Under the pieces are notes generated by a model, which made no database searches, had not been told where the DNA came from, and saw only the letters and a program-made list of their open reading frames with translations. Position numbers and translations under genes: made by a program. Source: Sandaracinus amylolyticus (GTDB lineage: Bacteria > Myxococcota_A > Polyangia > Polyangiales > Sandaracinaceae). Taken from it: a stretch of DNA of 64,000 nt. The stretch covers positions 4,216,001 to 4,280,000 of the forward strand of contig NZ_CP011125.1 in assembly GCF_000737325.1 (NCBI RefSeq). Reading direction: 5' to 3'. Positions 2,414 through 55,201 of this stretch are shown in pieces (position 1 is the first letter of the stretch; every line of letters starts with the position of its first letter).

Positions 2414-3756
2414 ATGACTCGGCTCAGGGTGGGATCGACCTTCGTGCTCGCGGGCGCTCTGCTCGCGCTCACCGGGTGCGGTGACGACGACGCGAGCGGT
2501 ACCGACACCGACGCCGGCACCGGCGGCGTGGACGCCAGCAACGGTGGCGTCGACGGTGGCGGCGACCCGGGCGACGAGGACGCAGGCCCGATCGGCGACG
2601 TGACCTACTACGGCCACGTCCGGCCGATCCTCGCGGAGAACTGCGTCAGCTGTCACGTCGCGGCGTCGCGCCGCTCGTTCTCGACAGCTACGACAGCGCG
2701 CGCACGTTCGCGACGCGCATCGCCGAGGTCACGCGCGATCGCATCATGCCGCCGTTCCTCGCGGACAACTCTGGCGAGTGCCACACGTGGCGCGACGCGC
2801 GCTGGCTCACCGATCGCGAGATCGCGACGCTCGCCGCGTGGGACGAGCAGGGCGAGCCCGAGGGCGATCCCGCGACGCCGCCGCCCACCGTGCCTCCGCT
2901 CCCCGAGCTCACCGGCACGGTCTCGATGATCCAGACCGAGGTCTACACGCCGGACGACTCCTCGACCGACGACTACCGCTGCTTCGTGGTCGACGGGCCG
3001 GACGCGACCACGTTCCTCACGGGCTACGAGGTGCACCCCGGCAACGCGCCGATCGTGCATCACGTGATCGTCTACGCGCCCACGAACGCCGACGCGGCGA
3101 ACGAAGCGCGCCAGCTCGACGCGAACGAGGCGGGCCCCGGCTACACGTGCTTCGGCGCGTCGAACGTCAACGCGTTCCCGGTCGTGCTCTGGGCGCCGGG
3201 CGGTGGCGCGACGACGTTCCCCGAAGGCACGGGCGTGGAGCTCACGGGCGGCCTGCCCCTGATCATCCAGGTCCACTACAACCTGCTCGCGGGCAACGAG
3301 CCCGATCAGACGAGCGTCGAGCTGCAGACCGCACCGAGCGCGACGCGCGCGCGCATCATCCCGCTCGGCGACTACGACATGTCGATCGGCCCGCGCATGT
3401 CGTCGGTGTCGACGTCGGAGACCGTCGACCTCTCCGACTTCACGCGCGGCATCAACCTGCCGATCACGATCTACGGGATGTTCCCGCACATGCACACGCT
3501 CGGCAGGCAGCTGCAGGTCGATCACATCGCGAACGCCGGCGCCGAGCAGTGCCTGATCGACGTGCCGCGCTGGGACTTCAACTGGCAGCTCGCGTACTTC
3601 TACGAGGAGCCGATCCGCATCTCGTCGCTCGACTCGATGCGGATCACGTGCACGTACGACACGAGCGAGCGCGACGAGACCGTCACGTGGGGCGAGGGCA
3701 CGCAGGACGAGATGTGCCTGAACTTCTTCTACGCGGTGATCGCGACGGGGCTCTGA
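2414..3756 (+). pseudogene. Copper type II ascorbate-dependent monooxygenase-like lipoprotein with c-type heme motif, frameshifted
   Basis: The N-terminal part (from ATG 2414) has a lipoprotein signal with lipobox LALTGC, a Gly/Asp-rich linker and a heme-type motif CVSCH. The frame then shifts at about 2655-2665. The rest continues in another frame as GVAPLVLDSYDSARTF and on to the stop at 3756. One extra G in the run at about 2660 would join the halves (CHVAGVAPLVL) into one protein of about 447 residues. The second half resembles the C-terminal domain of copper type II monooxygenases: HHVIVY, IIQVHYN and FPHMHTLG supply the expected His ligands. The family oxidises C-H bonds with copper outside the cytoplasm. 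The shift may be a true mutation or a sequencing error; both halves otherwise look well conserved. Confidence 0.8.
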
Positions 3757-3760
3757 TCGC

Positions 3761-4792
3761 TCACCGCGGTCGCGACGGCGCGAGCGCGGAGTAGCCCGGC
3801 GGCGCGGGAGGCACCGCGGGCCCACGATCGAGCGCGAAGTTGTGCGAAGCAGCGGCCCGGTGAGCGCGCATGCGCTCCCGGGCCGCGCGCTCTTCGCGGA
3901 GCTGCGTGAGCGCGCGCGCGAACGTCGCCTCGGGGTGCAGCATCAGCGCGTCGCGGATCGTGCGCTCCGCGACCTCGAGGCGCGAGTCCACGTCGGGCTC
4001 ACCCGACGCGCGCGCCGCGAGCCGCCGCGCCTGACCGAGATCGAACATCACGCGCGCGCGCTGCTCGTCGCTGCGCTGCTCGAACGTGCGCCGCGAGACG
4101 ACGCGCTCGAGCGTCGCGAGCGCCTCGCGCGGATGTCCCTCGCGCACCGCCTGCAGCGCCGCGCGCACCTCCGCGTCGTCGACGTCGACGAGCTCGACGT
4201 CGAGCTGTCGCTCGCCGGGATCGACCGCGCCGATCACGCGACGCCGCAGCCGCTCGACGATGCGCATGCGCATCGAGAGCGGATCCGAGCCCTCTTCGCG
4301 CTCCTCGATCGTCAGCTCCTGCAGCAGCCGATCGGTGCGCGCCTCGCTCACGCGCAGCATCACGCGCCCGACGACGACGGGCAGATCCTCGACCACCGAT
4401 CGTCGCACCGTGTTGCACCCCCACGTGGTGCACACGGTGTCTGGCCGCGAGAGGAACGACGGCCGCGCGGTCTCGACCACGTGCGTGTCGACGCGGATGA
4501 TCGCGCTCGCGGGACCGAACGAGCCGTTCGCGCGACGTCGCTCGAGCCCGTCCTCGTCGACGTGCTCCACGCGCAGTCCGTCGCGCGCGCTCGCGGCGAG
4601 GTGATGCGCGAGCGCGTCGGCGACGTCGAAGTCCTCGGGCGCCGTGCCGTGCACGATCGCGACCTCGGGGAACACGCGGATCGGGAGCTCTGGCGGAGTC
4701 TCGACCGTCGCGCGGACCTGCAGCGAGCCCCCACAGCCGCAGGTCAGCAGCGCGACGATCGCCACGATCACGTCGCTGTGTTTCGAGACCAC
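3761..4792 (-). CDS. Putative lipoprotein, 343 aa
   Basis: The N-terminus is hydrophobic and contains a Cys-rich stretch (LLTCGCGG) that could be a lipobox, so the protein is probably a lipoprotein. The middle part alternates beta-like segments (AIIRVDTHVVET, LPVVVGRVMLRVSE, LLQELTIEERE). The C-terminal half is helical and resembles TPR-like repeats (AALQAVREGHPREALATLERVV, ERTIRDALMLHPEATFARALTQLREE). The order suggests an envelope protein that assembles with others, but I recognise no family. It converges with the copper monooxygenase gene, with 4 bases between the stops. The next gene on the same strand starts about 85 bases upstream of it. Confidence 0.75.
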   Translation of the reverse strand: MVSKHSDVIVAIVALLTCGCGGSLQVRATVETPPELPIRVFPEVAIVHGTAPEDFDVADALAHHLAASARDGLRVEHVDEDGLERRRANGSFGPASAIIRVDTHVVETARPSFLSRPDTVCTTWGCNTVRRSVVEDLPVVVGRVMLRVSEARTDRLLQELTIEEREEGSDPLSMRMRIVERLRRRVIGAVDPGERQLDVELVDVDDAEVRAALQAVREGHPREALATLERVVSRRTFEQRSDEQRARVMFDLGQARRLAARASGEPDVDSRLEVAERTIRDALMLHPEATFARALTQLREERAARERMRAHRAAASHNFALDRGPAVPPAPPGYSALAPSRPR

Positions 4793-4878
4793 GACGATCC
4801 ATCGTGTGGCGCACGCCGCCTCGTTACAACTCGCTGCCCTGGGTGTGGCTCGCGTGCGATCGGATCGTCGTCGCGCGA

Positions 4879-5172
4879 TCAGCGGTCGTCGCGTCCGCCG
4901 CGCCCGTGACCTCGGCCCGGCGGGCTCTGTCCGCGATCGCTGCGCGAGCGGCCGCGATCGTCGTCGCGCCGCGCGTGGCCGGGCGGGCTCTCACCGCGAC
5001 CGCTGCGCGAGCGCGAGTCCGCGGGCACACCGAGGCGACGCGGGCTGTCTCCGCGCCGTGCGTCCACCGTCGTGTGCCCCGCGCTCCTGCCTCGGACCAC
5101 CGTCGCGCTGCACGCCGACGTGAGCGCCATCCCGAGCAGCACCGCGAGCACACGAAGCGAGACTCCACGCAT
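4879..5172 (-). CDS. Small Arg/Asp/Ser/Gly-rich lipoprotein
   Basis: The frame is open further upstream, but the ATG at 5172 is preceded by a clear ribosome binding site (AGGAGG, 4-5 bases before it) and starts a good lipoprotein signal (MRGVSLRVLAVLLGMALTSAC), so I chose it. The mature part of about 75 residues is polar, with repeated patterns of the type SPPGHARRDDD / SPPGRGHGRGG, and is likely disordered. No homologue comes to mind. Low-complexity coding sequence of this kind is easily mis-called, but the ribosome site and lipobox make it credible. Confidence 0.6.
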   Translation of the reverse strand: MRGVSLRVLAVLLGMALTSACSATVVRGRSAGHTTVDARRGDSPRRLGVPADSRSRSGRGESPPGHARRDDDRGRSRSDRGQSPPGRGHGRGGRDDR

Positions 5173-5242
5173 CCGAACCTCCTGGTGCAGAGGGAATGAC
5201 CACCAGGAGCGCTCGCCTTCATCGCGGATGTCGGAGCGAGGA

Positions 5243-6457
5243 TCACAGCCGCGCCGCGGAGAGCGCGACGACATCGTCGATGTCGCGCGCTCCGAGCAGC
5301 AGCATCACGAGCCGATCGACACCGAGCGCGTTGCCGCCGCTCGGCGGCATGCCTTCTTCGAGCGCGGCGAGGAAGCGCTCGTCGAGCGGATACACCGGCA
5401 GACCACGCGCCTCACGCGCGCGCTGATCGTGCTGCAAGCGCGCGCGCTGCTCGACCGCGTCGGTGAGCTCGCCGAACCCGTTGCAGAGCTCCATCGCGTC
5501 GACGAACGCCTCGAACCGATCGGCGCGCCCGTTCGGCAGCAGCTGCGCGAGCGATGCCATGCTCGCGGGCCACTCGATCAAGAACACCGGGCGCGCACGA
5601 CCGAGCTCGGGCTCGATCGTCTCGGTGAGGATCCGGAAGAAGCGCTCTTCGTCCGGCAGCACGTCCGCGACGCGCACGCCCGCGTAGCGCTCGAACGCCT
5701 CGTCGACGGTGAGTCGCTCCCACGGAGCCGCGAGCTCGATCGCGCCGCGCTCTCCTTCGACCCGCGTCGTGCCGAGCACGGTGCGCGCGGCGTGCGCGAC
5801 CATCTGCTCGGTGTCGCGCATCACGTCGTCCGAGCCCGCGAGCGCGCGATACCACTCGAGCATCGTGAACTCGGGCTGGTGTCGCGAGCCCTCCTCGCCG
5901 CGCCGATAGCAGCGACAGAGCTGGTAGATGCGCTCGAGCCCGCCGCTCAGGAGCCGCTTCATCTGGTACTCGGGGCTCGTGATCAGCCAGCGCGGCTCGC
6001 GCGCATTGCCGAGCGAGAACGCGTCGAGGTGCAGATCGAGCCCCGGGCTCGGCACCGCGCTCGGCGTCTCGACCTCGACGAACCCCGCGCCGTCGAGCCA
6101 GCCGCGCACCGCGCGCACGATCGCCGCACGCTGCGTCAGCAGCGTCATCCTGCGGCGCGCGTCCTGGTGCGTGCGCACCCACTCGCCGTGCACGCGCCAG
6201 CGCTCGCCGATGGGTGCTCTGAGCACATCGACGCTCAGAGCACGCATCTGCGATCCGTCCCACGCGCCCTCGACGCGCACCCACGCGTAGTCGGGCGGCG
6301 GGGCGCACGCGGCGAGCTCGATCCCGATCGCGCCGCTCGCGTCCTCCACGCGCACGCGATCCGGGCCCACGAACGTGACGCGGCCCGCGACGCACACCGT
6401 GCTCGGTGCCGCGACGCGGGCCAGCTCGTCGATCATCACGCGCGCGCTCGCGCGCAT
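5243..6457 (-). CDS. epmA: EpmA-type EF-P lysyl transferase (lysyl-tRNA synthetase paralogue) with N-terminal OB-like domain
   Basis: The protein (404 aa) carries the class II aminoacyl-tRNA synthetase core of EpmA/GenX: the motifs PSPGLDLHLDAF, WLITSPEYQMKRLL, QLCRCYRRGEEG, HQPEFTMLEWYRA, ELCNGFGELTDA and the motif-3 region GGNALGVDRLVMLLLG. EpmA attaches a (beta-)lysine to a lysine of elongation factor P. The efp gene lies 4 bases upstream in the same operon, which supports this over a true LysRS; the length is also about 100 residues short of LysRS. Unlike E. coli EpmA (325 aa) it has about 95 extra N-terminal residues (VCVAGRVTFVGPDRVRVED) that look like a small OB fold. The start ATG 6457 is plausible; ATG 6436 (MIDEL) is the alternative. 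Confidence 0.9.
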   Translation of the reverse strand: MRASARVMIDELARVAAPSTVCVAGRVTFVGPDRVRVEDASGAIGIELAACAPPPDYAWVRVEGAWDGSQMRALSVDVLRAPIGERWRVHGEWVRTHQDARRRMTLLTQRAAIVRAVRGWLDGAGFVEVETPSAVPSPGLDLHLDAFSLGNAREPRWLITSPEYQMKRLLSGGLERIYQLCRCYRRGEEGSRHQPEFTMLEWYRALAGSDDVMRDTEQMVAHAARTVLGTTRVEGERGAIELAAPWERLTVDEAFERYAGVRVADVLPDEERFFRILTETIEPELGRARPVFLIEWPASMASLAQLLPNGRADRFEAFVDAMELCNGFGELTDAVEQRARLQHDQRAREARGLPVYPLDERFLAALEEGMPPSGGNALGVDRLVMLLLGARDIDDVVALSAARL

Positions 6458-47581: not shown

Positions 47582-49792
47582 ATGGACGCACGAGGCCCCA
47601 AGCTGCTGGAGACCATCGCGCGCGCGCCGCACGTCGCGCTGATCCTCGATCTCGACGGCACGCTGATCCCGTTCGCGGCGACACCGGCTCAGGCGACCGT
47701 CGACGCGCCCACGCACGAGCTGGTCTCCGGGCTCGCGCGGACACCGGGCGTCACCGTCGCGGTGGTGAGCGGGCGCAAGCGCGAGGAGCTCGAGGCGCGG
47801 CTCGGCGACGTGCCCGGCGTGCTCCTCGCGGCCGAGCACGGCGCGTGGCGGCGCGACGAGAGCGGGTGGGCGCAGCTCGAGCTCCACGGCGCGGATCCGG
47901 CGCCGATCGAGCGCGCGCTCCGCGCGCTGGCGCGACCTCGCGCGGGCGCGCTCGTCGAGCGGAAGACGTGGTCGGTCACGCTGCACTTCCGGCGTGTGGC
48001 CGAGAGCGAGCGCGAGGCGCTGATCGTCGAGGCGTCGGACGCGATCGAGACCTGGGCGCGCGAGCACCCGGAGTACGAGCTGCTCGAGGGCGATCAGGTG
48101 CTCGAGGTACGGCACCGCGGCGCGCACAAGGGCAGCGCGGTCGAGTGGGTGCGCGGGCACGTCCCCCCGGGATCGTGCTTCGTCGCGCTCGGGGACGATC
48201 GCACCGACGAGGACACGTTCGCGGCGTTGCGCGACGAGGACGTGCCGATCCTCGTGGGCGACGCCGATCGTCCGACACGCGCGAAGGCGAGGCTCGACGA
48301 TCCGCGCGCGGTGCGCTCGTTCCTGCGTACGCTGCTGCGCGCCCGGCAGGAGGTCGATCCCAGCGGCGAGCTCGCGATCCCGCGGCCGCTCCCGCGCACC
48401 GCGCCCGACGCGCGCGCGTCGTTCCTGGTGATCTCGAACCGGCTGCCCGACGCGCCCAGCGCCGCTGCGGGCGAGAGCGAGCGCGCGCGCAACGTCGGCG
48501 GCCTCGTGTCGGGGCTCGCGCCCGCGCTCGCGGCGCGCGGCGGTGTGTGGCTCGGGTGGAGCGGCGGGCGGCGTCCCGGCGCGCTCGAGCTCGCCGTCGA
48601 TGCGTCGTCGACGCCGGCGCGCGCGTCGTTCGACTTCCATCCCGAGTGGCACACCCGCTTCTACAACGGGTTCGCGAACCGCAGCCTCTGGCCGATCTTC
48701 CACGGCTTCCCGGGGCGCGCGCGCTACGACGAGAGCGAGTGGCGCGCGTACGTCGAGGTGAACGACGTGTTCGCCGAGATGGCGACGCGGCTCGTCGCGC
48801 CGGGCGGCACGGTGTGGGCGCACGACTATCACCTGCTGCTCGTCGCGGCCTCGATGCGCGCGCGCGGGCACTCGGGGCCGCTCGGGCTCTTCCTCCACAT
48901 CCCGTTCCCGGCGCTCGATCTCTTCGAGACGATCCCGTGGTCGCGCGCGCTGCTCGACGGGATGCTCGCGTTCGATCTCGTCGGGTTCCACACGCGGCGC
49001 TACGCGCAGAGCTTCGTGCGATGCGCGGAGGAGCTCGCGCGCGCGACCGCGACGTCGTCGGGCGTGCGCGTCGACGGGCGCGAGGTGCGCGTCGGCGTGT
49101 TCCCGCTGGGGATCGACGCCGCGCCGTTCGAGGAGATCGACGCCGCGACCGAGGGCGAGATCGCGGAGCTGCAGGCCGCGCTGCGCGGCCGCAGGCTCGT
49201 GCTCGGGGTCGATCGCCTCGACTACACGAAGGGCATCGTCGAGCGGCTCGATGCGTTCGGGCGGATGCTCGAGCTGCATCCCGAGTGGCGAGGTCGCGTC
49301 TCGATGCTGCAGGTCGCAGTGCCTTCGCGCGCCGACGTGCCGGAGTACGCGGAGCAGCGGCGCGCCATCGAGACGCTCGTCGGCCGCATCAACGGCGAGC
49401 ACGGCGAGGCGCACTGGATGCCGGTGCGGTACGTGTATCGCTCGTACGGGCGCGGACAGCTCGCGGCGCTCTATCGCGCGGCAGACGTCGGGTACGTCAC
49501 GCCGCTGCGCGATGGGATGAACCTCGTCGCGAAGGAGTACGTCGCGGCGCAGCATCCGACGAGCCCGGGCGTGCTGTTGCTGTCGAGGTTCGCGGGTGCG
49601 GCCGACGAGCTCGAGGGCGCGATCCTGACGAACCCGCACGACCGCGACGGGATGGCGCGCGATCTCGTGCGCGCGCTGGAGATGCCCGCGGAGGAACGGA
49701 TCGCGCGGCACGCGCCGATGCTCGAGCGAGTGCGCCGGAGCACGCCCGAAGTGTGGGCCGACGCGTTCCTGCACGAGCTCGAGCGGCGCTGA
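47582..49792 (+). CDS. otsBA: Bifunctional trehalose-6-phosphate phosphatase/synthase, phosphatase domain first
   Basis: The protein (736 aa) has an N-terminal trehalose-6-phosphate phosphatase (HAD fold) with LILDLDGTLIPFA, VVSGRKREELEARLG, HKGSAVEWVRGHVPPGSCFVALGDDRTDEDTF. The C-terminal domain (about 280-736) is the GT20 synthase with HDYHLLLVAASM, HIPFPALDLFETIPW, VGVFPLGIDAAPF, GVDRLDYTKGIVERLDAFG and PLRDGMNLVAKEYVA. Together they convert UDP-glucose plus glucose-6-phosphate to trehalose. In plants, yeast and some bacteria the order is synthase then phosphatase; here it is reversed. It starts 96 bases after the lipoprotein gene. The symbol reflects domain order and is not an established name. 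Confidence 0.9.
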   Translation: MDARGPKLLETIARAPHVALILDLDGTLIPFAATPAQATVDAPTHELVSGLARTPGVTVAVVSGRKREELEARLGDVPGVLLAAEHGAWRRDESGWAQLELHGADPAPIERALRALARPRAGALVERKTWSVTLHFRRVAESEREALIVEASDAIETWAREHPEYELLEGDQVLEVRHRGAHKGSAVEWVRGHVPPGSCFVALGDDRTDEDTFAALRDEDVPILVGDADRPTRAKARLDDPRAVRSFLRTLLRARQEVDPSGELAIPRPLPRTAPDARASFLVISNRLPDAPSAAAGESERARNVGGLVSGLAPALAARGGVWLGWSGGRRPGALELAVDASSTPARASFDFHPEWHTRFYNGFANRSLWPIFHGFPGRARYDESEWRAYVEVNDVFAEMATRLVAPGGTVWAHDYHLLLVAASMRARGHSGPLGLFLHIPFPALDLFETIPWSRALLDGMLAFDLVGFHTRRYAQSFVRCAEELARATATSSGVRVDGREVRVGVFPLGIDAAPFEEIDAATEGEIAELQAALRGRRLVLGVDRLDYTKGIVERLDAFGRMLELHPEWRGRVSMLQVAVPSRADVPEYAEQRRAIETLVGRINGEHGEAHWMPVRYVYRSYGRGQLAALYRAADVGYVTPLRDGMNLVAKEYVAAQHPTSPGVLLLSRFAGAADELEGAILTNPHDRDGMARDLVRALEMPAEERIARHAPMLERVRRSTPEVWADAFLHELERR

Positions 49793-49842: not shown

Positions 49843-50253
49843 GTGCGGCACGGGTCGCGGGCGAGCGTGAAGGAGAGGGCGCGGGAGATCCCCGCGCTGC
49901 TCTTCGCGCTCGCGTGGCTCGTCGGCTTCGAGGTCGGCCCAGCGCTGCACCTCGCGCGACACGCGTCGCTCGGCGCGCACGAGCACGGCGCGCGCGCGGC
50001 GACGCACTGCCACGACGGCGTCTGCCACGAAGACGACGGCGCGAGCGAGCGACACGAGCGACCGGCGCCCGATCACGGCGCAGGGAGCCTCGAGCACGGA
50101 GGCGTCGCAGCGCTCGCGCCGGCACCGGTGCTCGGCGCGCTGGTCGGCCCGTGCATCGCGGAGATCGTCGCGCCAGAGCGCGACGCGCAGGCGGCACCCA
50201 CGGCGCGCGCCGAGCGAGCGCGCGCGAGGGGCCCGCCGCGCGCGCACGCGTGA
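49843..50253 (+). CDS. Small His-rich membrane protein, possibly metal-related
   Basis: The start is probably GTG 49843, or GTG 49867 (VKERAREIPALLFALAWLVG). The 136-residue protein has a hydrophobic N-terminus (about 17-33), then a His-rich segment (HLARHASLGAHEHGARAATH and HCHDGVCHEDDGASERHERP). A second hydrophobic segment (VAALAPAPVLGALVGPC) follows. The His/Cys pairs suggest metal binding, and the arrangement recalls DUF2946-type proteins next to metal TonB receptors; this comparison is by layout only. It lies 51 bases after the trehalose gene and upstream of the TonB receptor gene, with a gap of 229 bases in which I see no gene. Confidence 0.6.
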   Translation: MRHGSRASVKERAREIPALLFALAWLVGFEVGPALHLARHASLGAHEHGARAATHCHDGVCHEDDGASERHERPAPDHGAGSLEHGGVAALAPAPVLGALVGPCIAEIVAPERDAQAAPTARAERARARGPPRAHA

Positions 50254-50482
50254 GCCGGACGACGTGCGTGGCGCATGCGTGCTCGGGTGAGCGCGCCGCG
50301 CGGGCATCGACGTGGTCGCGCGCGCCCGCGTGACCGTCGCGCGCTGCGTCGCGACGACGGCATCGCATCGCGGTGCTTCCCCGCGGCGCGCGTGAGCGCG
50401 CGTGTGCGCATCGCATCGGAACGAATCGCGGACGAGCTCGCGAGCTGCGCGAACGCGCGGCGAGCGGCCGAGAGGAACGAGC

Positions 50483-52723
50483 GTGGAACGCGGAGTGGCA
50501 CGAGCGCGCGCGCAGCGAGCGCGCGCCCTGACGATCCTGGGTGTCGCGACATGGCTCGCGATGCCGTGCGTCGTCGTGCGCGCGCAACCGGACGCGCCGC
50601 CGGCCTCGGACTCCGCCTCGGACTCGGAGTCGGCCTCGGACTCGGATCCCCCGCCCGTCTTCCACGCGCGCGCAGTCGCGTCCCCTGCACCACCGCTCGT
50701 CACCGATCTCCCGCTCGCGCCGTTCCGCATCGTCCCGCGTCGCACGGCCGAGTCGTTCCTCACGCTCGTGCCCGGCCTCTTCCTCCTCAACCACGCGGGC
50801 GCGTACCACGCGTCGACCGTGTTGCTCCGCGGCTTCGACGCCGGGGAAGGGCGCGATCTCGCGGTGCTCGTCCATGGCGTGCCCATCAACGAGCCGTCGA
50901 ACGCGCACGGCCACGGCTACGCCGACACGCACTTCGTGATCCCCGAGCTCGTCGAGTCGCTGCGCGTCACCGAAGGCCCGTTCGCGCCCGAGCAGTCCGA
51001 CTTCGCGCTCGCCGGCAGCGTCGAGCACCGGCTCGGCGTGCGCGCTCGCGGCCTGCGCGTGCAGGGCGAGCTCGGCTCGTTCGACACGCGCCGTCTCTTG
51101 CTCTCGTGGGCGCCCGTCGGCGCGGAGCGCGGGACGTTCGCCGCCGTCGATCTCCGCGACGCGCGCGGGTTCGGTCGCCATCGCGCGTCCACGTCGCTCG
51201 CGCTCAACGCGGGCTACGAGCACGTCGTCTCGTCCGACGTCCGCATCGCGCTGCTCGGCTTCGCGCACTTCGCCGACTTCGACTCCGCCGGCGTGCTCCG
51301 CGCCGACGACGTGGCCGCGCGCACGCTGCCGTGTGCACCGAGCGATCGCGCCCAGCGCCTCTGCGCGTACGACGACGCCCAGGGCGGCACGTCGTCGCGC
51401 GCGATGCTGGTCGCGACACTGTCGTGGACGCGCCCGGGCACGCGCCTCGAGCAGACGATCTGGGGCGGCTGGCGCCGCCTCCGCATGCGCGAGAATTTCA
51501 CGGGTTTCCTCCTCGATCCGCGCGGCGACCTCGTCGATCAGCAGTACGAGACCGGACAGGCGGGCCTGCGCGGCAGCTATCGCGCGACGACGCGCGCGCT
51601 CGACGATCGTCCGCAGCACCTCGAGCTCGGGTGGATCGCGCGCCACGACGCGGGAACCACGCGCGCGCTGCGCCTCCGCGCGTCCGACGGCGCGCCCTAC
51701 CGCGCCGACTTCGACGATGCGATCGCGATCACCCACGTCGGTGCGCACGTCGCGGCCGAGCTCGACTTCGCCGACTGGATCGCGCTCCGCGCCGCGCTGC
51801 GCGCCGATGGATTCGCGTACACCACGACCGATCACACCGAGCCCGAGCGCGATCGCGAGGGAGAGCGCCTGCCGTTCCGCACCACCGACGCGCTCGGCAT
51901 CTCGCTGCAGCCGCGAGGCACGCTACGCGTTCGCTTCGCGCCGTGGCTCGAGTGGCAGAGCAGCGCCGGCGTCGGCGCGCGCTCGTCCGATGCCGTCGCG
52001 CTCTCGGACGGAGAGCGGGCGCCGTTCGCGCGCGCGATCGCGATCGAGAGCGCGCTCGCGCTGGGCCTCGCCGAGCAGGGCGCGTGGGCGCTCGATGCGC
52101 GCCTCGCCGCGTTCCACACCCACGTCGATCGCGAGCTCGTCTTCGACCCCGAGCGCGCGCGCAACGTCGACGCCGGTGCGTCGAGCCGCCTCGGCGCGCT
52201 CGCCTCGGCGCGCCTGCGCGTCGCGCGCTGGCTCGACGTGCTCGCGAGCGGCGCGTGGACCGAGGCGTTCCTCCTCGCGGAGCGCGCGGAGTGGCAGGAC
52301 TTCACGAGCGACGAGCGCCTGCCGTACGTGCCGCGCTGGACGCTGCGTCTCGACGTCGCGACGCACCACGCGATCACGATCGCGGGCGAGACGATCACGA
52401 TCGGCGGAGGCCTCGGCATCGGCGCGCTCGGCGAGCGCCCGCTCCCGCTCGGTCGCGTGGCGCCGGCGTTCGCGCTCGTCGACGTCGGGATCGTGGTGCG
52501 ATGGCGGATCGTCGAGGTCGGCGCGCAGATCACGAACCTCTTCGACGCGGGCTGGGACCAGAACGTCTTCTTCTACCCGTCGAGCTTCGACGCGGGCGCG
52601 ACGCCCTCGCGCCTGCCCGAGCTCCACGCCGCCGCGGGCGCGCCACGCGCCGCGCTGATCACGCTCGCGCTCCTGATCGACGAGAGCGATCCCCTGCGCG
52701 GGATCGCGGAGGAGATCCCATGA
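50483..52723 (+). CDS. TonB-dependent outer membrane receptor
   Basis: GTG 50483 is preceded by AGAGGA, and gives MERGVARARAQRARALTILG plus signal peptide cleaved near VRA-QP. The plug domain contains TAESFLTLVPGLFLLNHAGA, LRGFDAGEGRDLAVLVHGVP and HGHGYADTHFVIPELVESL. A 22-strand barrel follows, ending in RAALITLALLI; 14 further residues (DESDPLRGIAEEIP) replace the usual terminal aromatic residue. TonB-dependent receptors take up siderophores, heme, B12, sugars or metal complexes. The stop overlaps the first lipoprotein gene (ATGA). The substrate is unknown; the His-rich neighbour hints at a metal. Confidence 0.9.
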   Translation: MERGVARARAQRARALTILGVATWLAMPCVVVRAQPDAPPASDSASDSESASDSDPPPVFHARAVASPAPPLVTDLPLAPFRIVPRRTAESFLTLVPGLFLLNHAGAYHASTVLLRGFDAGEGRDLAVLVHGVPINEPSNAHGHGYADTHFVIPELVESLRVTEGPFAPEQSDFALAGSVEHRLGVRARGLRVQGELGSFDTRRLLLSWAPVGAERGTFAAVDLRDARGFGRHRASTSLALNAGYEHVVSSDVRIALLGFAHFADFDSAGVLRADDVAARTLPCAPSDRAQRLCAYDDAQGGTSSRAMLVATLSWTRPGTRLEQTIWGGWRRLRMRENFTGFLLDPRGDLVDQQYETGQAGLRGSYRATTRALDDRPQHLELGWIARHDAGTTRALRLRASDGAPYRADFDDAIAITHVGAHVAAELDFADWIALRAALRADGFAYTTTDHTEPERDREGERLPFRTTDALGISLQPRGTLRVRFAPWLEWQSSAGVGARSSDAVALSDGERAPFARAIAIESALALGLAEQGAWALDARLAAFHTHVDRELVFDPERARNVDAGASSRLGALASARLRVARWLDVLASGAWTEAFLLAERAEWQDFTSDERLPYVPRWTLRLDVATHHAITIAGETITIGGGLGIGALGERPLPLGRVAPAFALVDVGIVVRWRIVEVGAQITNLFDAGWDQNVFFYPSSFDAGATPSRLPELHAAAGAPRAALITLALLIDESDPLRGIAEEIP

Positions 52724-53394
52724 GACGTTCGCTCGCCGTGCTCTCGATCGCGCTCTCGGTGCTCGCGGTGCTCGCGTGCGCGGGCACCAGCGGGCGCGCC
52801 GTCGTGTTCCCGGTCGTCGCACGCGCGAGCGCGCCGGCGACGTTCACCACGAGCACGGGCTGGGACGTCGTGCTCGACGAGGCGAGCGTCACGCTTCGCG
52901 CGCTGCGCGTGCTCGCGGCCGACGACGACGCGCTGTCGCAGCTCCTCTCGTCGCCGGTCGCGCGCGCGCACGGCGGGCACGCGCTCGAGCGCGGCGTGCG
53001 CGCGGAGCTGCTCGGCCCGATCGAGCTCGACGCGCTCGCGCCCGAGCCGACCGAGATCGGCATCGCGCACGGGAGCGCCGGGCCCGCGCGCGCGATCGAT
53101 CTCGAGCTCGGCGAGTCCGACGTCGTCGCGCGGGTGCGTGGTGTCGCGACGCGCGGTGACGAGCAGGTCGTGATCGCGGGAGAGCTCGTCGTGCCGGGCG
53201 GGCTGCGGCTCGAAGGTCTTCCGCTCGACGCGAGCATCGACGAGCTCGGCGCGCTCCACGTGTCGATCTCCGTCGACCGGTGGCTCGATCAGGCGCGCTT
53301 CGACGAGGCGTCGTACGCGCTCGCGTGGTCGCTCGGCATCCGCGACGCGCGGGCGTTCGTCGTGACGTGGGATCCGGAAGGAGGCATGGAGTGA
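52720..53394 (+). CDS. Lipoprotein linked to TonB receptor, unknown family
   Basis: ATG 52720 overlaps the receptor stop. The signal (MRRSLAVLSIALSVLAVLAC) has lipobox LAVLAC. The mature domain (about 200 residues) is beta-rich: FTTSTGWDVVLDEASVTLRA, GIAHGSAGPARAIDLELGES and VIAGELVVPGGLRLEGLPLD. It contains an AHGGH segment that could bind a metal. I do not recognise a family. Coupling to the receptor suggests that it handles the same ligand in the periplasm. Confidence 0.75.
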   Translation: MRRSLAVLSIALSVLAVLACAGTSGRAVVFPVVARASAPATFTTSTGWDVVLDEASVTLRALRVLAADDDALSQLLSSPVARAHGGHALERGVRAELLGPIELDALAPEPTEIGIAHGSAGPARAIDLELGESDVVARVRGVATRGDEQVVIAGELVVPGGLRLEGLPLDASIDELGALHVSISVDRWLDQARFDEASYALAWSLGIRDARAFVVTWDPEGGME

Positions 53395-54245
53395 AACGAC
53401 TGGCGATGATGGCATGTCTGCTCGCGGCGTGCGGCGATGCGCGCGGGACGCTCGCGGTGCGGGTCGGCGGCGAAGAGGCCGCCGAGCGCGGATGGCCGCT
53501 CGAGATCGACGGAGAGACGATCGCGTTCGCCGACGGATGGTCGCTCGAATTCGATCGTGTGCTGGCCTCCGTCGTCGCGTTCTCGATCGCCGGGAGCGAC
53601 GGAGAGCGCGTCGCGCTCGAGGTCGATCCCGTGGTCGCCGATCTCCACGGAGGACAGATCGAGGCATGGCGCTTCGAGGCCCTCGCCGCGCGTCGATGGG
53701 AGCGGCTCGACTGGCGCATCGCGCCGCCCACCGCGAGCGCGCGCACGATCGGCGGCGTGCAGAGCGAGCACGTGACGCGGATGAGCGACGCGGGCTGGTC
53801 GATGTTGCTCGAGGGCCGCGCGACGCACCCCGAGCACGGCGCGTACGAGCTCTCGCTCGGGCTTCCGCTCGACGTCGACAACGTGCGCTGCGAGCTCGAG
53901 GACGGAACGCTCGGCATCGTCGTGCCCGAGGGCGGCGTCGCGGACACGGAGCTCACGTTCCATCTCGATCACGTGTTCTTCGACGACCTCGGTGCCGAGC
54001 CCGAGATGCGCTTCGAGGCGTGGGCCGCGGCCGCCGGCGAGGACCGCGTGATCACGCTCGACGACCTCGCGTCGCAGTCGCTTGCGGATCTGCGCGGCAT
54101 CGACGGCGAGCCCCTGGGCGTCACCTACGATCCCGGCGCGACGCCGCTCGCATCGGGTGATCTCCGCGCGTTCGTGATCGCAGCCGCGACGAGCGTCGGC
54201 CATCTGAACGGAGAAGGGCACTGCGAGTACGACGTCGCGCGCTGA
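53391..54245 (+). CDS. Lipoprotein linked to TonB receptor, second unknown family
   Basis: GTG 53391 overlaps the stop of the preceding lipoprotein (GTGA). The signal (MKRLAMMACLLAACGDARG) has lipobox LLAAC. The mature part has segments such as LAVRVGGEEAAERGWPLEID, VLASVVAFSIAGSDGERVAL and TELTFHLDHVFFDDLGAEPE; His residues occur in VADLHGG, THPEHGAY and FHLDHVFF. It may share its general layout with the preceding lipoprotein, hinting at a duplicated beta-sandwich. Function unknown; gene order implies the same system as the receptor. Confidence 0.72.
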   Translation: MKRLAMMACLLAACGDARGTLAVRVGGEEAAERGWPLEIDGETIAFADGWSLEFDRVLASVVAFSIAGSDGERVALEVDPVVADLHGGQIEAWRFEALAARRWERLDWRIAPPTASARTIGGVQSEHVTRMSDAGWSMLLEGRATHPEHGAYELSLGLPLDVDNVRCELEDGTLGIVVPEGGVADTELTFHLDHVFFDDLGAEPEMRFEAWAAAAGEDRVITLDDLASQSLADLRGIDGEPLGVTYDPGATPLASGDLRAFVIAAATSVGHLNGEGHCEYDVAR

Positions 54246-54252
54246 GCGCGGC

Positions 54253-54849
54253 GTGACGGAGCGCGCGCGCGACCGCCAATCGTCTGCACTCACCGTGCAA
54301 CACCTTCTCTTGCATCTGCTCGTCGCTTCTCTCTTCCTCACCGCGTGCGGCAACGAGGCCGGCGCCGGCGATCCCACGACGGACGCCGGCCCCGCCGTCG
54401 ACGCCGCGACCTTCGACGCTGCCGTCGTCGACGCGTCGTCGCCCGACGACGACGACGCGGGCACACCCGCGGAGGACGCGGGTCAGCCCATCGACGCCGA
54501 CGTCCCCGACTGCCGCGGCAACGCAGTGACCTGCTACGGCCGCGACGTGCCGGCGTGCGAGATCGGCATCGGCTGCGTCGTCATCCCGCGCTGCCTCGGC
54601 GTGCCGGCGCGCTGCTTCGAGCAGCCCACGCCCGACGACTGCAGCGCCGTGGCCGGCTGCACCTGGAACGACGGCCTCGGCCGCTGCGGCGGCGCTCAGC
54701 GCCAGTGCGCGACGTTCGACGAGGACACCTGCGAGACACAGCCCGGGTGCTTCTACGGCGGCGTCTGCGGCGGCCAGATCACGCGCTGCGCGCTGCTCGA
54801 CGAGCAGACCTGCGACACGCAGATCGGCTGCACCTGGGACCCGAGCTGA
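54253..54849 (+). CDS. Cys-rich lipoprotein with threefold repeat
   Basis: Start is GTG 54253 or GTG 54295. The signal ends in lipobox FLTAC. An Asp/Ala-rich linker (about 35-85) leads to a Cys-rich domain with three related repeats: DDCSAVAGCTWNDGLGRCGG, EDTCETQPGCFYGGVCGG and EQTCDTQIGCTWDPS. Such repeats form small disulfide-bonded modules seen in myxobacterial surface proteins. It follows the lipoprotein pair by 7 bases, so it may belong to the operon. It converges with the MazF-like gene. Confidence 0.7.
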   Translation: MTERARDRQSSALTVQHLLLHLLVASLFLTACGNEAGAGDPTTDAGPAVDAATFDAAVVDASSPDDDDAGTPAEDAGQPIDADVPDCRGNAVTCYGRDVPACEIGIGCVVIPRCLGVPARCFEQPTPDDCSAVAGCTWNDGLGRCGGAQRQCATFDEDTCETQPGCFYGGVCGGQITRCALLDEQTCDTQIGCTWDPS

Positions 54850-54856
54850 GCGCGCG

Positions 54857-55201
54857 TCAGCGCTCGAAGAACGACAGCTGCTGGAACCGCAGGCCCGCGA
54901 GGATCTGATCCACGCGGGCTTGCGAGAGCGCTCCGATCCGCGCGCCCAAGCGGCTCTTCTCGACCGACGAGATCTGCGAGACGACGACCACGCTCTGCTT
55001 CGGCAGGCTCGCCTCACCCGGCTCGAGCAGCACGTTCCCCGGCTCGCTCGCGCGGTGCAGGTTCGTCGTCAGCGCGCACACCACGACCGTCGTGATGCGC
55101 GAGTGATTGAGCACGTCGTCCTGCACCACGACGTGCGGGTGCGGGTACCCATTCGCGTCGTCGGGCGCGACCCAGAACACGTCACCGCGGTCGATGCGCA
55201 T
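54857..55201 (-). CDS. MazF/PemK-family toxin-like protein
   Basis: MazF-type toxins are sequence-specific endoribonucleases. The 114-residue protein has the fold signature RGDVFWVAPDDANGYPHPHV, VCALTTNLHRASEPGNVLLE and a typical C-terminal part (KQSVVVVSQISSVEKSRLG, then ARIGALSQARVDQILAGL). No antitoxin gene lies on either side: upstream is leuS (25 bases), downstream is the convergent Cys-rich lipoprotein. It could be co-transcribed with leuS. It may be a solitary toxin, or a domesticated housekeeping nuclease. Confidence 0.88.
   Translation of the reverse strand: MRIDRGDVFWVAPDDANGYPHPHVVVQDDVLNHSRITTVVVCALTTNLHRASEPGNVLLEPGEASLPKQSVVVVSQISSVEKSRLGARIGALSQARVDQILAGLRFQQLSFFER

Follow-up and report, generated by a model that had tools for sequence, protein, structure and literature searches.

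A candidate outer-membrane metal import module with two predicted MbnP-fold lipoproteins in Sandaracinus amylolyticus

Introduction

SusCD, BtuB-BtuG and TbpAB are pairs of a TonB-dependent receptor (TBDR) and a lipoprotein, and the zinc chaperone AztD is known as a partner of the AztABC transporter. The uptake of zinc through TBDRs under the control of Zur is an established kind of transport, as in the case of Caulobacter ZnuK and ZnuL (PMC4176598; reviewed in PMC6103462), and aztABC is listed in the Zur regulon of Paracoccus (PMC6103462). MbnP is paired with MbnH; an earlier study reported the two in the vicinity of MbnT-like receptors and drew a comparison with MopE/CorA (PMC3621798). Except in a few Proteobacteria, little is known of how zinc and nickel cross the outer membrane; the literature search returned nothing on how myxobacteria take up zinc through it and no relevant paper on MbnP-like TBDR lipoproteins. 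The present work concerns a gene row in a 64,000-nucleotide stretch of the Sandaracinus amylolyticus genome (contig NZ_CP011125.1, positions 4,216,001 to 4,280,000; hereafter the window), which encodes a small His-rich membrane protein, a TBDR, two lipoproteins termed lipoA and lipoB, and a Cys-rich lipoprotein (Table 1). An earlier sequence-only reading had taken this row for a self-contained import system for a metal or metallophore that known families do not describe. The results presented here suggest that the window probably holds one copy, of the type called 'His-type', of a myxobacterial outer-membrane importer for a divalent transition metal, with zinc as the most likely substrate.

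Results

The five open reading frames (ORFs) of the row all show high-GC codon bias (ORF list, translations and codon-bias gene caller), and the succession of the His-rich membrane protein, the TBDR and the two lipoproteins, with its ATGA and GTGA overlaps, was found by the ORF list and the gene caller as it had been described. Pfam and NCBIfam recognise only one of the five proteins, the TBDR, whose Plug (PF07715, E 3.6e-7) and beta-barrel (PF00593, E 1.6e-10) domains, both above the gathering score, place it in the TBDR family; a PDB sequence search with this protein gave no matches. When 40 neighbourhoods were fetched and their genes called and clustered, TBDR, lipoA and lipoB formed one recurrent block, and the co-occurrence of these genes elsewhere, suggested earlier as a check, was borne out in about 100 of 120 loci, some of which are duplicates. 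The lipoB gene was found in 37 of 56 related genomes, in 87 of the 115 genomes of the order and, at a strict threshold, in 72 of the 235 genomes of the phylum. A scan of 84,980 species with a profile from a 13-row alignment yielded 152 relatives, of which the best 80 are all Myxococcota where records name them, including Myxococcus xanthus, Corallococcus, Polyangium, Minicystis and Sandaracinus; one of these 80 is filed as Comamonas, yet carries Myxococcus-type synteny. The genome of the window contains three copies (in the window, at G000:C1:1.84 Mb and at G000:C1:9.76 Mb). This distribution indicates that receptor-lipoA-lipoB is a conserved and widespread module of Myxococcota, with a predicted function in import.

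Neither lipoprotein matches Pfam or NCBIfam, and in PDB sequence searches the lipoB profile retrieved only calmodulin EF-hand loops and lipoA nothing significant. The AlphaFold2 models of both proteins (pLDDT 88.8 for lipoA and 94.8 for lipoB) had the same top PDB match, MbnP of Methylosinus trichosporium (7L6G), with a Foldseek E of 2.3e-3 and a VIA Z of 9.3 over 169 residues for lipoA (next entry 5.2), and a Foldseek E of 7.1e-4 and a Z of 10.1 over 193 residues for lipoB (next entry 6.8). All six chains of 7L6G rank 1-6 in both Foldseek lists, in which the E-values reach only about 1e-3. Profile-profile comparison with MbnP gave a probability of 21% for lipoB, which is not significant, and none for lipoA, and comparison of both lipoprotein families with PF20243, the MbnP family, gave no match for any member. 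Comparison of the lipoA and lipoB profiles gave a probability of 99.2% over 229 columns (a one-pair E-value, with the signal peptide included), so that the two proteins are related to each other. According to these models, lipoA and lipoB are predicted to have a diverged form of the MbnP fold and to stand outside PF20243. The view that the lipoproteins are not described by known families holds for the family databases and does not extend to the fold.

The His motifs noticed earlier in the lipoproteins, AHGGH and FHLDHVFF, are present, and since their core residues are conserved in 55-sequence alignments, they are not due to chance. AHGGH corresponds to residues 83-87 of lipoA, with H84 and G86 at least 90% conserved; the lipobox Cys (Cys20) and A83-H84-x-G86 are conserved in lipoA relatives, a long variable loop lies ahead of AHxGH, and one branch has a Cys pair in place of the His loop. 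FHLDHVFF corresponds to residues 190-197 of lipoB and takes the family form TxHxDHxFF. The residues E28, C167, T189, H191, D193, H194, R207, H271 and C278 of lipoB are invariant, and its relatives keep the lipobox Cys, the Cys pair C167/C278 and a C-terminal GHxxGEGxC, many of them also having an EF-hand-like loop. All metal-type His motifs of both lipoproteins are retained in the window copy. Metal binding by the lipoproteins is a prediction, of which the analysis covered the conservation of His, Asp and Glu residues. The MbnP-type Trp segment (FWNWQGGYKF, seen in the MbnP proteins of L054 and L141), associated with kynurenine formation, is absent from the consensus of lipoA and of lipoB, and no MauG/MbnH gene is present in the window operon. 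A longer lipoB variant of 390-410 amino acids, lipoB2, is either a neighbour of ZigA or accompanied by a TBDR and a lipoA of its own (L164, L165, L167, L168, L169, L170).

A search for palindromes ahead of module-type genes found TGCAACnnnGTTGCA de novo, without prior expectation. This is the same palindrome as the Zur box predicted for Desulfovibrio in 2004, ATGCAACNNNGTTGCAT (PMC545781). With at most one mismatch, it occurs at 17 sites in 1.66 Mb of loci, 13 of which lie ahead of TBDR, lipoprotein, AztD, ZigA or Fur genes, and six control patterns (the reversed and five scrambled palindromes) gave 0 sites ahead of such genes. In the genome of the window, the box precedes the AztD-TBDR-lipoA-lipoB copy (copy 2) and ZigA, copy 3 of the module, genes for a Fur-type regulator and a MerC protein, and the exbB-exbD-tonB operon, which suggests a zinc-dedicated TonB system. 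A MerC protein is also encoded beside a module in L041. The predicted NikR box has the form GTGTTAC-N13/14-GTAACAC in either orientation (PMC545781). Of 108 loci, 31 have this box or its C/T variant, with up to two mismatches, ahead of module genes, and four controls gave 0, 1, 0 and 9 loci; in many loci it precedes TBDR, lipoA or lipoB. The loci with Zur boxes, NikR boxes and the His-rich protein do not overlap, except for two weak Zur matches in L126 and L133, which have two mismatches, lie at lipoB starts and were judged to be due to chance.

The neighbouring genes point in the same direction. AztD-like zinc chaperones (NF038015) are encoded next to the module in relatives, where E ranges from 1e-51 to 7e-15 and the NCBI curated cut-off is not reached, and in copy 2 of the window's genome. 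Of the AztD genes in the 115 genomes, 9 of 16 stand 2.0-4.4 kb from lipoB, and for 10 of 30 ZigA genes the distance to lipoB or lipoB2 is at most 8 kb; this association is not due to chance. AztD adjoins the module, and therefore both likely share one zinc pathway. Other neighbours in relatives include the ZigA GTPase, Fur-family regulators and GTP cyclohydrolase I. In other loci, the module is adjoined by NikR (PF08753, 96 bits) and nickel-permease-like proteins. In the order sample, NikR and MbnP genes are near the module only occasionally (2 of 44 and 2 of about 78, respectively). In Labilithrix and relatives, NikR-type regulators are encoded next to the module (L111 at 4917-5483, L115, L148, L119 and L126); the C-terminal tails of those in L111 and L115 are rich in His. 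The genome of the window contains one ZnuA and no NikR gene. Taken together, the Zur and NikR boxes and the AztD, ZigA, Fur, NikR and nickel-permease neighbours make metal uptake a well supported prediction for the module family.

The copy in the window is of the 'His-type', preceded by the small His-rich protein. In this protein, P33, H36, H46, H48, H78, S82, H85 and P131 are invariant across 13 relatives, nearly all of which are encoded directly upstream of a TBDR-lipoA-lipoB module; the conserved motifs are LHLxxH, HxHG, HGxGSxEH and a C-terminal RGPP (or PQGP), and the window protein (P0001) also contains a CHxxxCH motif. It has no match in Pfam (E up to 1), DUF2946 (PF11162) included, or in NCBIfam, and three relatives have no Pfam match (E up to 0.1). 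No common palindrome was found ahead of the His-rich gene in the 27 loci searched. Its position and conservation suggest that the His-rich protein is an accessory of His-type modules. In the His-type cluster of L038/L073, which adjoins an MbnP-MbnH pair, lipoA and lipoB are kept, but lipoA follows the His-rich gene with no receptor gene in between. In the trees, the TBDR, lipoA and lipoB of the window each fall in a clade (support 1.0, 0.995 and 0.997, respectively) of zinc-type, His-type and unclassified copies with no nickel-type copy, and in the lipoB tree zinc-type branches stand on both sides of the His-type.

The surroundings of the module differ in conservation. The Cys-rich lipoprotein that had been said to end the row is indeed encoded there; as a component of the module it was rejected, because its relative was found in the sister species of the same genus only, and it is a neighbour. 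A gap of 50-75 bp separates the row from otsBA upstream, which has the same orientation, and this synteny is kept in the sister species (L033). Outside the genus, the gene upstream of the module varies among relatives, for which reason otsBA was not accepted as a component either. Downstream, leuS lies on the opposite strand beyond a PemK/MazF-like gene, adjoining which no antitoxin gene was noticed. An Rfam scan of the window gave no matches.

Table 1. Coordinates of the gene row, its neighbours and further genes with Zur-type boxes in the same genome
Feature	Position	Strand	Remarks
Fused trehalose gene otsBA	47582-49792	+	phosphatase domain first, synthase domain second; directly upstream of the row
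Small His-rich protein	49843-50253	+	N-terminal hydrophobic segment; GTG start at 49843 or 49867
TBDR	50483-52723	+	Pfam Plug and barrel
lipoA	52720-53394	+	ATGA overlap with TBDR stop; lipobox Cys20; predicted MbnP fold; AHGGH
lipoB	53391-54245	+	GTGA overlap with lipoA; alternative ATG 53406; predicted MbnP fold; TxHxDHxFF
Cys-rich lipoprotein	54253-54849	+	repeated Cys motifs; relative only in same genus (L033)
PemK/MazF-like toxin gene	54857-55201	-	Pfam E 5e-22; between the operon and leuS
exbB-exbD-tonB operon	L184 (G000:C1:3257000-3264000), genes 3337-5286		Zur-type box at site 3238
Fur-family regulator, candidate Zur	L188 (G000:C1:9768500-9775500), 3351-3848	-	box at site 3841
MerC-family membrane protein	L183, 2920-3348	-	box at site 3333

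Discussion

The module resembles several described systems and differs from each of them. Like SusCD, BtuB-BtuG and TbpAB, it encodes a receptor together with a lipoprotein partner, but it differs from them in fold and substrates and has two lipoproteins of one family; membership in SusCD was rejected, as the fold differs. Both lipoproteins share the MbnP fold in their models over the whole length (PF20243, 7L6G; MopE/CorA group) and, like MbnP near MbnT-like receptors (PMC3621798), are encoded beside a TBDR. In contrast to MbnP, they have no PF20243 match, no MbnH di-haem partner and no Trp segment, and they form a tandem of two paralogues, with conserved His motifs of their own, under predicted zinc or nickel control instead of copper control. 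With respect to the zinc receptors ZnuD and Caulobacter ZnuK, ZnuL and ZnuM, sister copies of the module likewise have a TBDR under a Zur box, and the zinc accessory genes ZigA and AztD and the ExbB-ExbD-TonB genes bear the same box; however, those receptors have no described pair of MbnP-fold lipoproteins in the cited literature, and a Zur box is missing from the window copy. The AztD-like proteins differ from known AztD in standing beside an outer-membrane receptor. The His-rich protein is, like DUF2946 proteins, short, with an N-terminal hydrophobic segment and a His/Cys cluster, and encoded beside metal systems (e.g. Caulobacter CC2720, PMC4176598), but it lacks the Pfam match and has its own HGxGSxEH and RGPP/PQGP signatures.

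The simplest reading is that the window copy is a zinc-family importer which has escaped from Zur control and acquired the His-rich protein, and zinc is its probable metal. Several observations weigh against this. Of the Fur or Zur sites that had been proposed for searching, Zur boxes are present at copies 2 and 3 and in relatives, and the window has no Zur box even at two mismatches; neither is there a NikR box at the window operon, and the NikR-box search in the whole genome gave fewer matches than the control. The regulators whose boxes reveal the metal in relatives therefore do not govern the window copy; metal import is indicated for the family, and zinc is no more than probable for this copy. 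Moreover, the same kind of His-rich protein precedes the module in Corallococcus, Myxococcus and Archangium, and these Myxococcaceae copies group with nickel-type ones, so the protein is no zinc indicator by itself. It would mark a mode of use and not zinc as such, perhaps a third metal. Copper is possible too, as MbnP/MbnH genes stand beside a few members (L073/L038, L125 and L141) and the one relative by fold with a solved structure, MbnP, is a copper-binding protein.

If the window copy imported copper, the His-rich protein would act like DUF2946-type proteins and the lipoproteins would bind copper as MbnP does. The fold match, the MbnP/MbnH genes adjoining the close relative L073/L038, the missing Zur box and the CHxxxCH motif of P0001 are consistent with this, but the operon has no MbnH partner, neither P0001 nor the lipoproteins match the respective Pfam families, the Trp-rich segment is missing from both lipoprotein consensus sequences, MbnP genes are rare near the module in the order, and the closest relatives outside the His-type are zinc-type. 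Copper import is therefore regarded as unlikely. TBDRs usually take ligands, and the module might import a metal complex (metallophore or protein-bound metal) and not a free ion, with the lipoproteins as capture lids comparable to SusD-, BtuG- or TbpB-type partners. Two overlapping lipoprotein genes after the receptor gene, as with receptor-partner lipoproteins, and the variable lipoA loop would suit such a role. However, no metallophore biosynthesis genes were seen adjoining the copies examined, which leaves the metallophore of the sequence-only reading unsupported; the conserved His motifs fit direct metal binding, and zinc is taken up by Zur-regulated TBDRs, for instance ZnuK/ZnuL of Caulobacter (PMC4176598), all of which renders the complex improbable. 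It is very unlikely that the window copy is no metal importer at all, having diverged to a sugar or another substrate, perhaps in one operon with otsBA: the proximity and synteny of otsBA and the absence of a metal box would fit, but the upstream gene differs outside the genus, the metal-type His motifs are all kept, and the His-rich protein is an addition and not a loss.

For the preferred reading, a metal importer of probable zinc type, the following mechanism can be proposed. Anchored in the outer membrane and presumably at the cell surface, lipoA and lipoB would capture the metal via their conserved His motifs (AHxGH; TxHxDH and the C-terminal His) and hand it to the TBDR. TonB-ExbB-ExbD would open the receptor and drive import; these proteins are encoded elsewhere under a Zur box, which makes the supposed self-contained nature of the system doubtful. 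In the periplasm, the metal would be received by the small His-rich protein in the window copy, or by AztD in Zur-type copies, and an inner-membrane carrier, e.g. the single ZnuA-type system, would complete the uptake.

Zur-controlled zinc uptake by TBDRs is already known; the new elements are the pair of predicted MbnP-fold lipoproteins and the proposed switch of one chassis between metals. There is about an even chance that the module represents a new, phylum-wide class of outer-membrane importers of transition metals, in which tandem MbnP-fold lipoproteins capture the metal and changed regulators and accessories re-tune the chassis to zinc, nickel or a third metal marked by the His-rich protein. 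If this is true, Myxococcota would gain a defined machine for outer-membrane uptake of zinc and nickel, present also in Myxococcus xanthus, which is tractable in the laboratory, and two unnamed lipoprotein families would gain a function. The MbnP fold, so far associated with copper and kynurenine, would then widen to a general metal-capture fold, which is directly testable.

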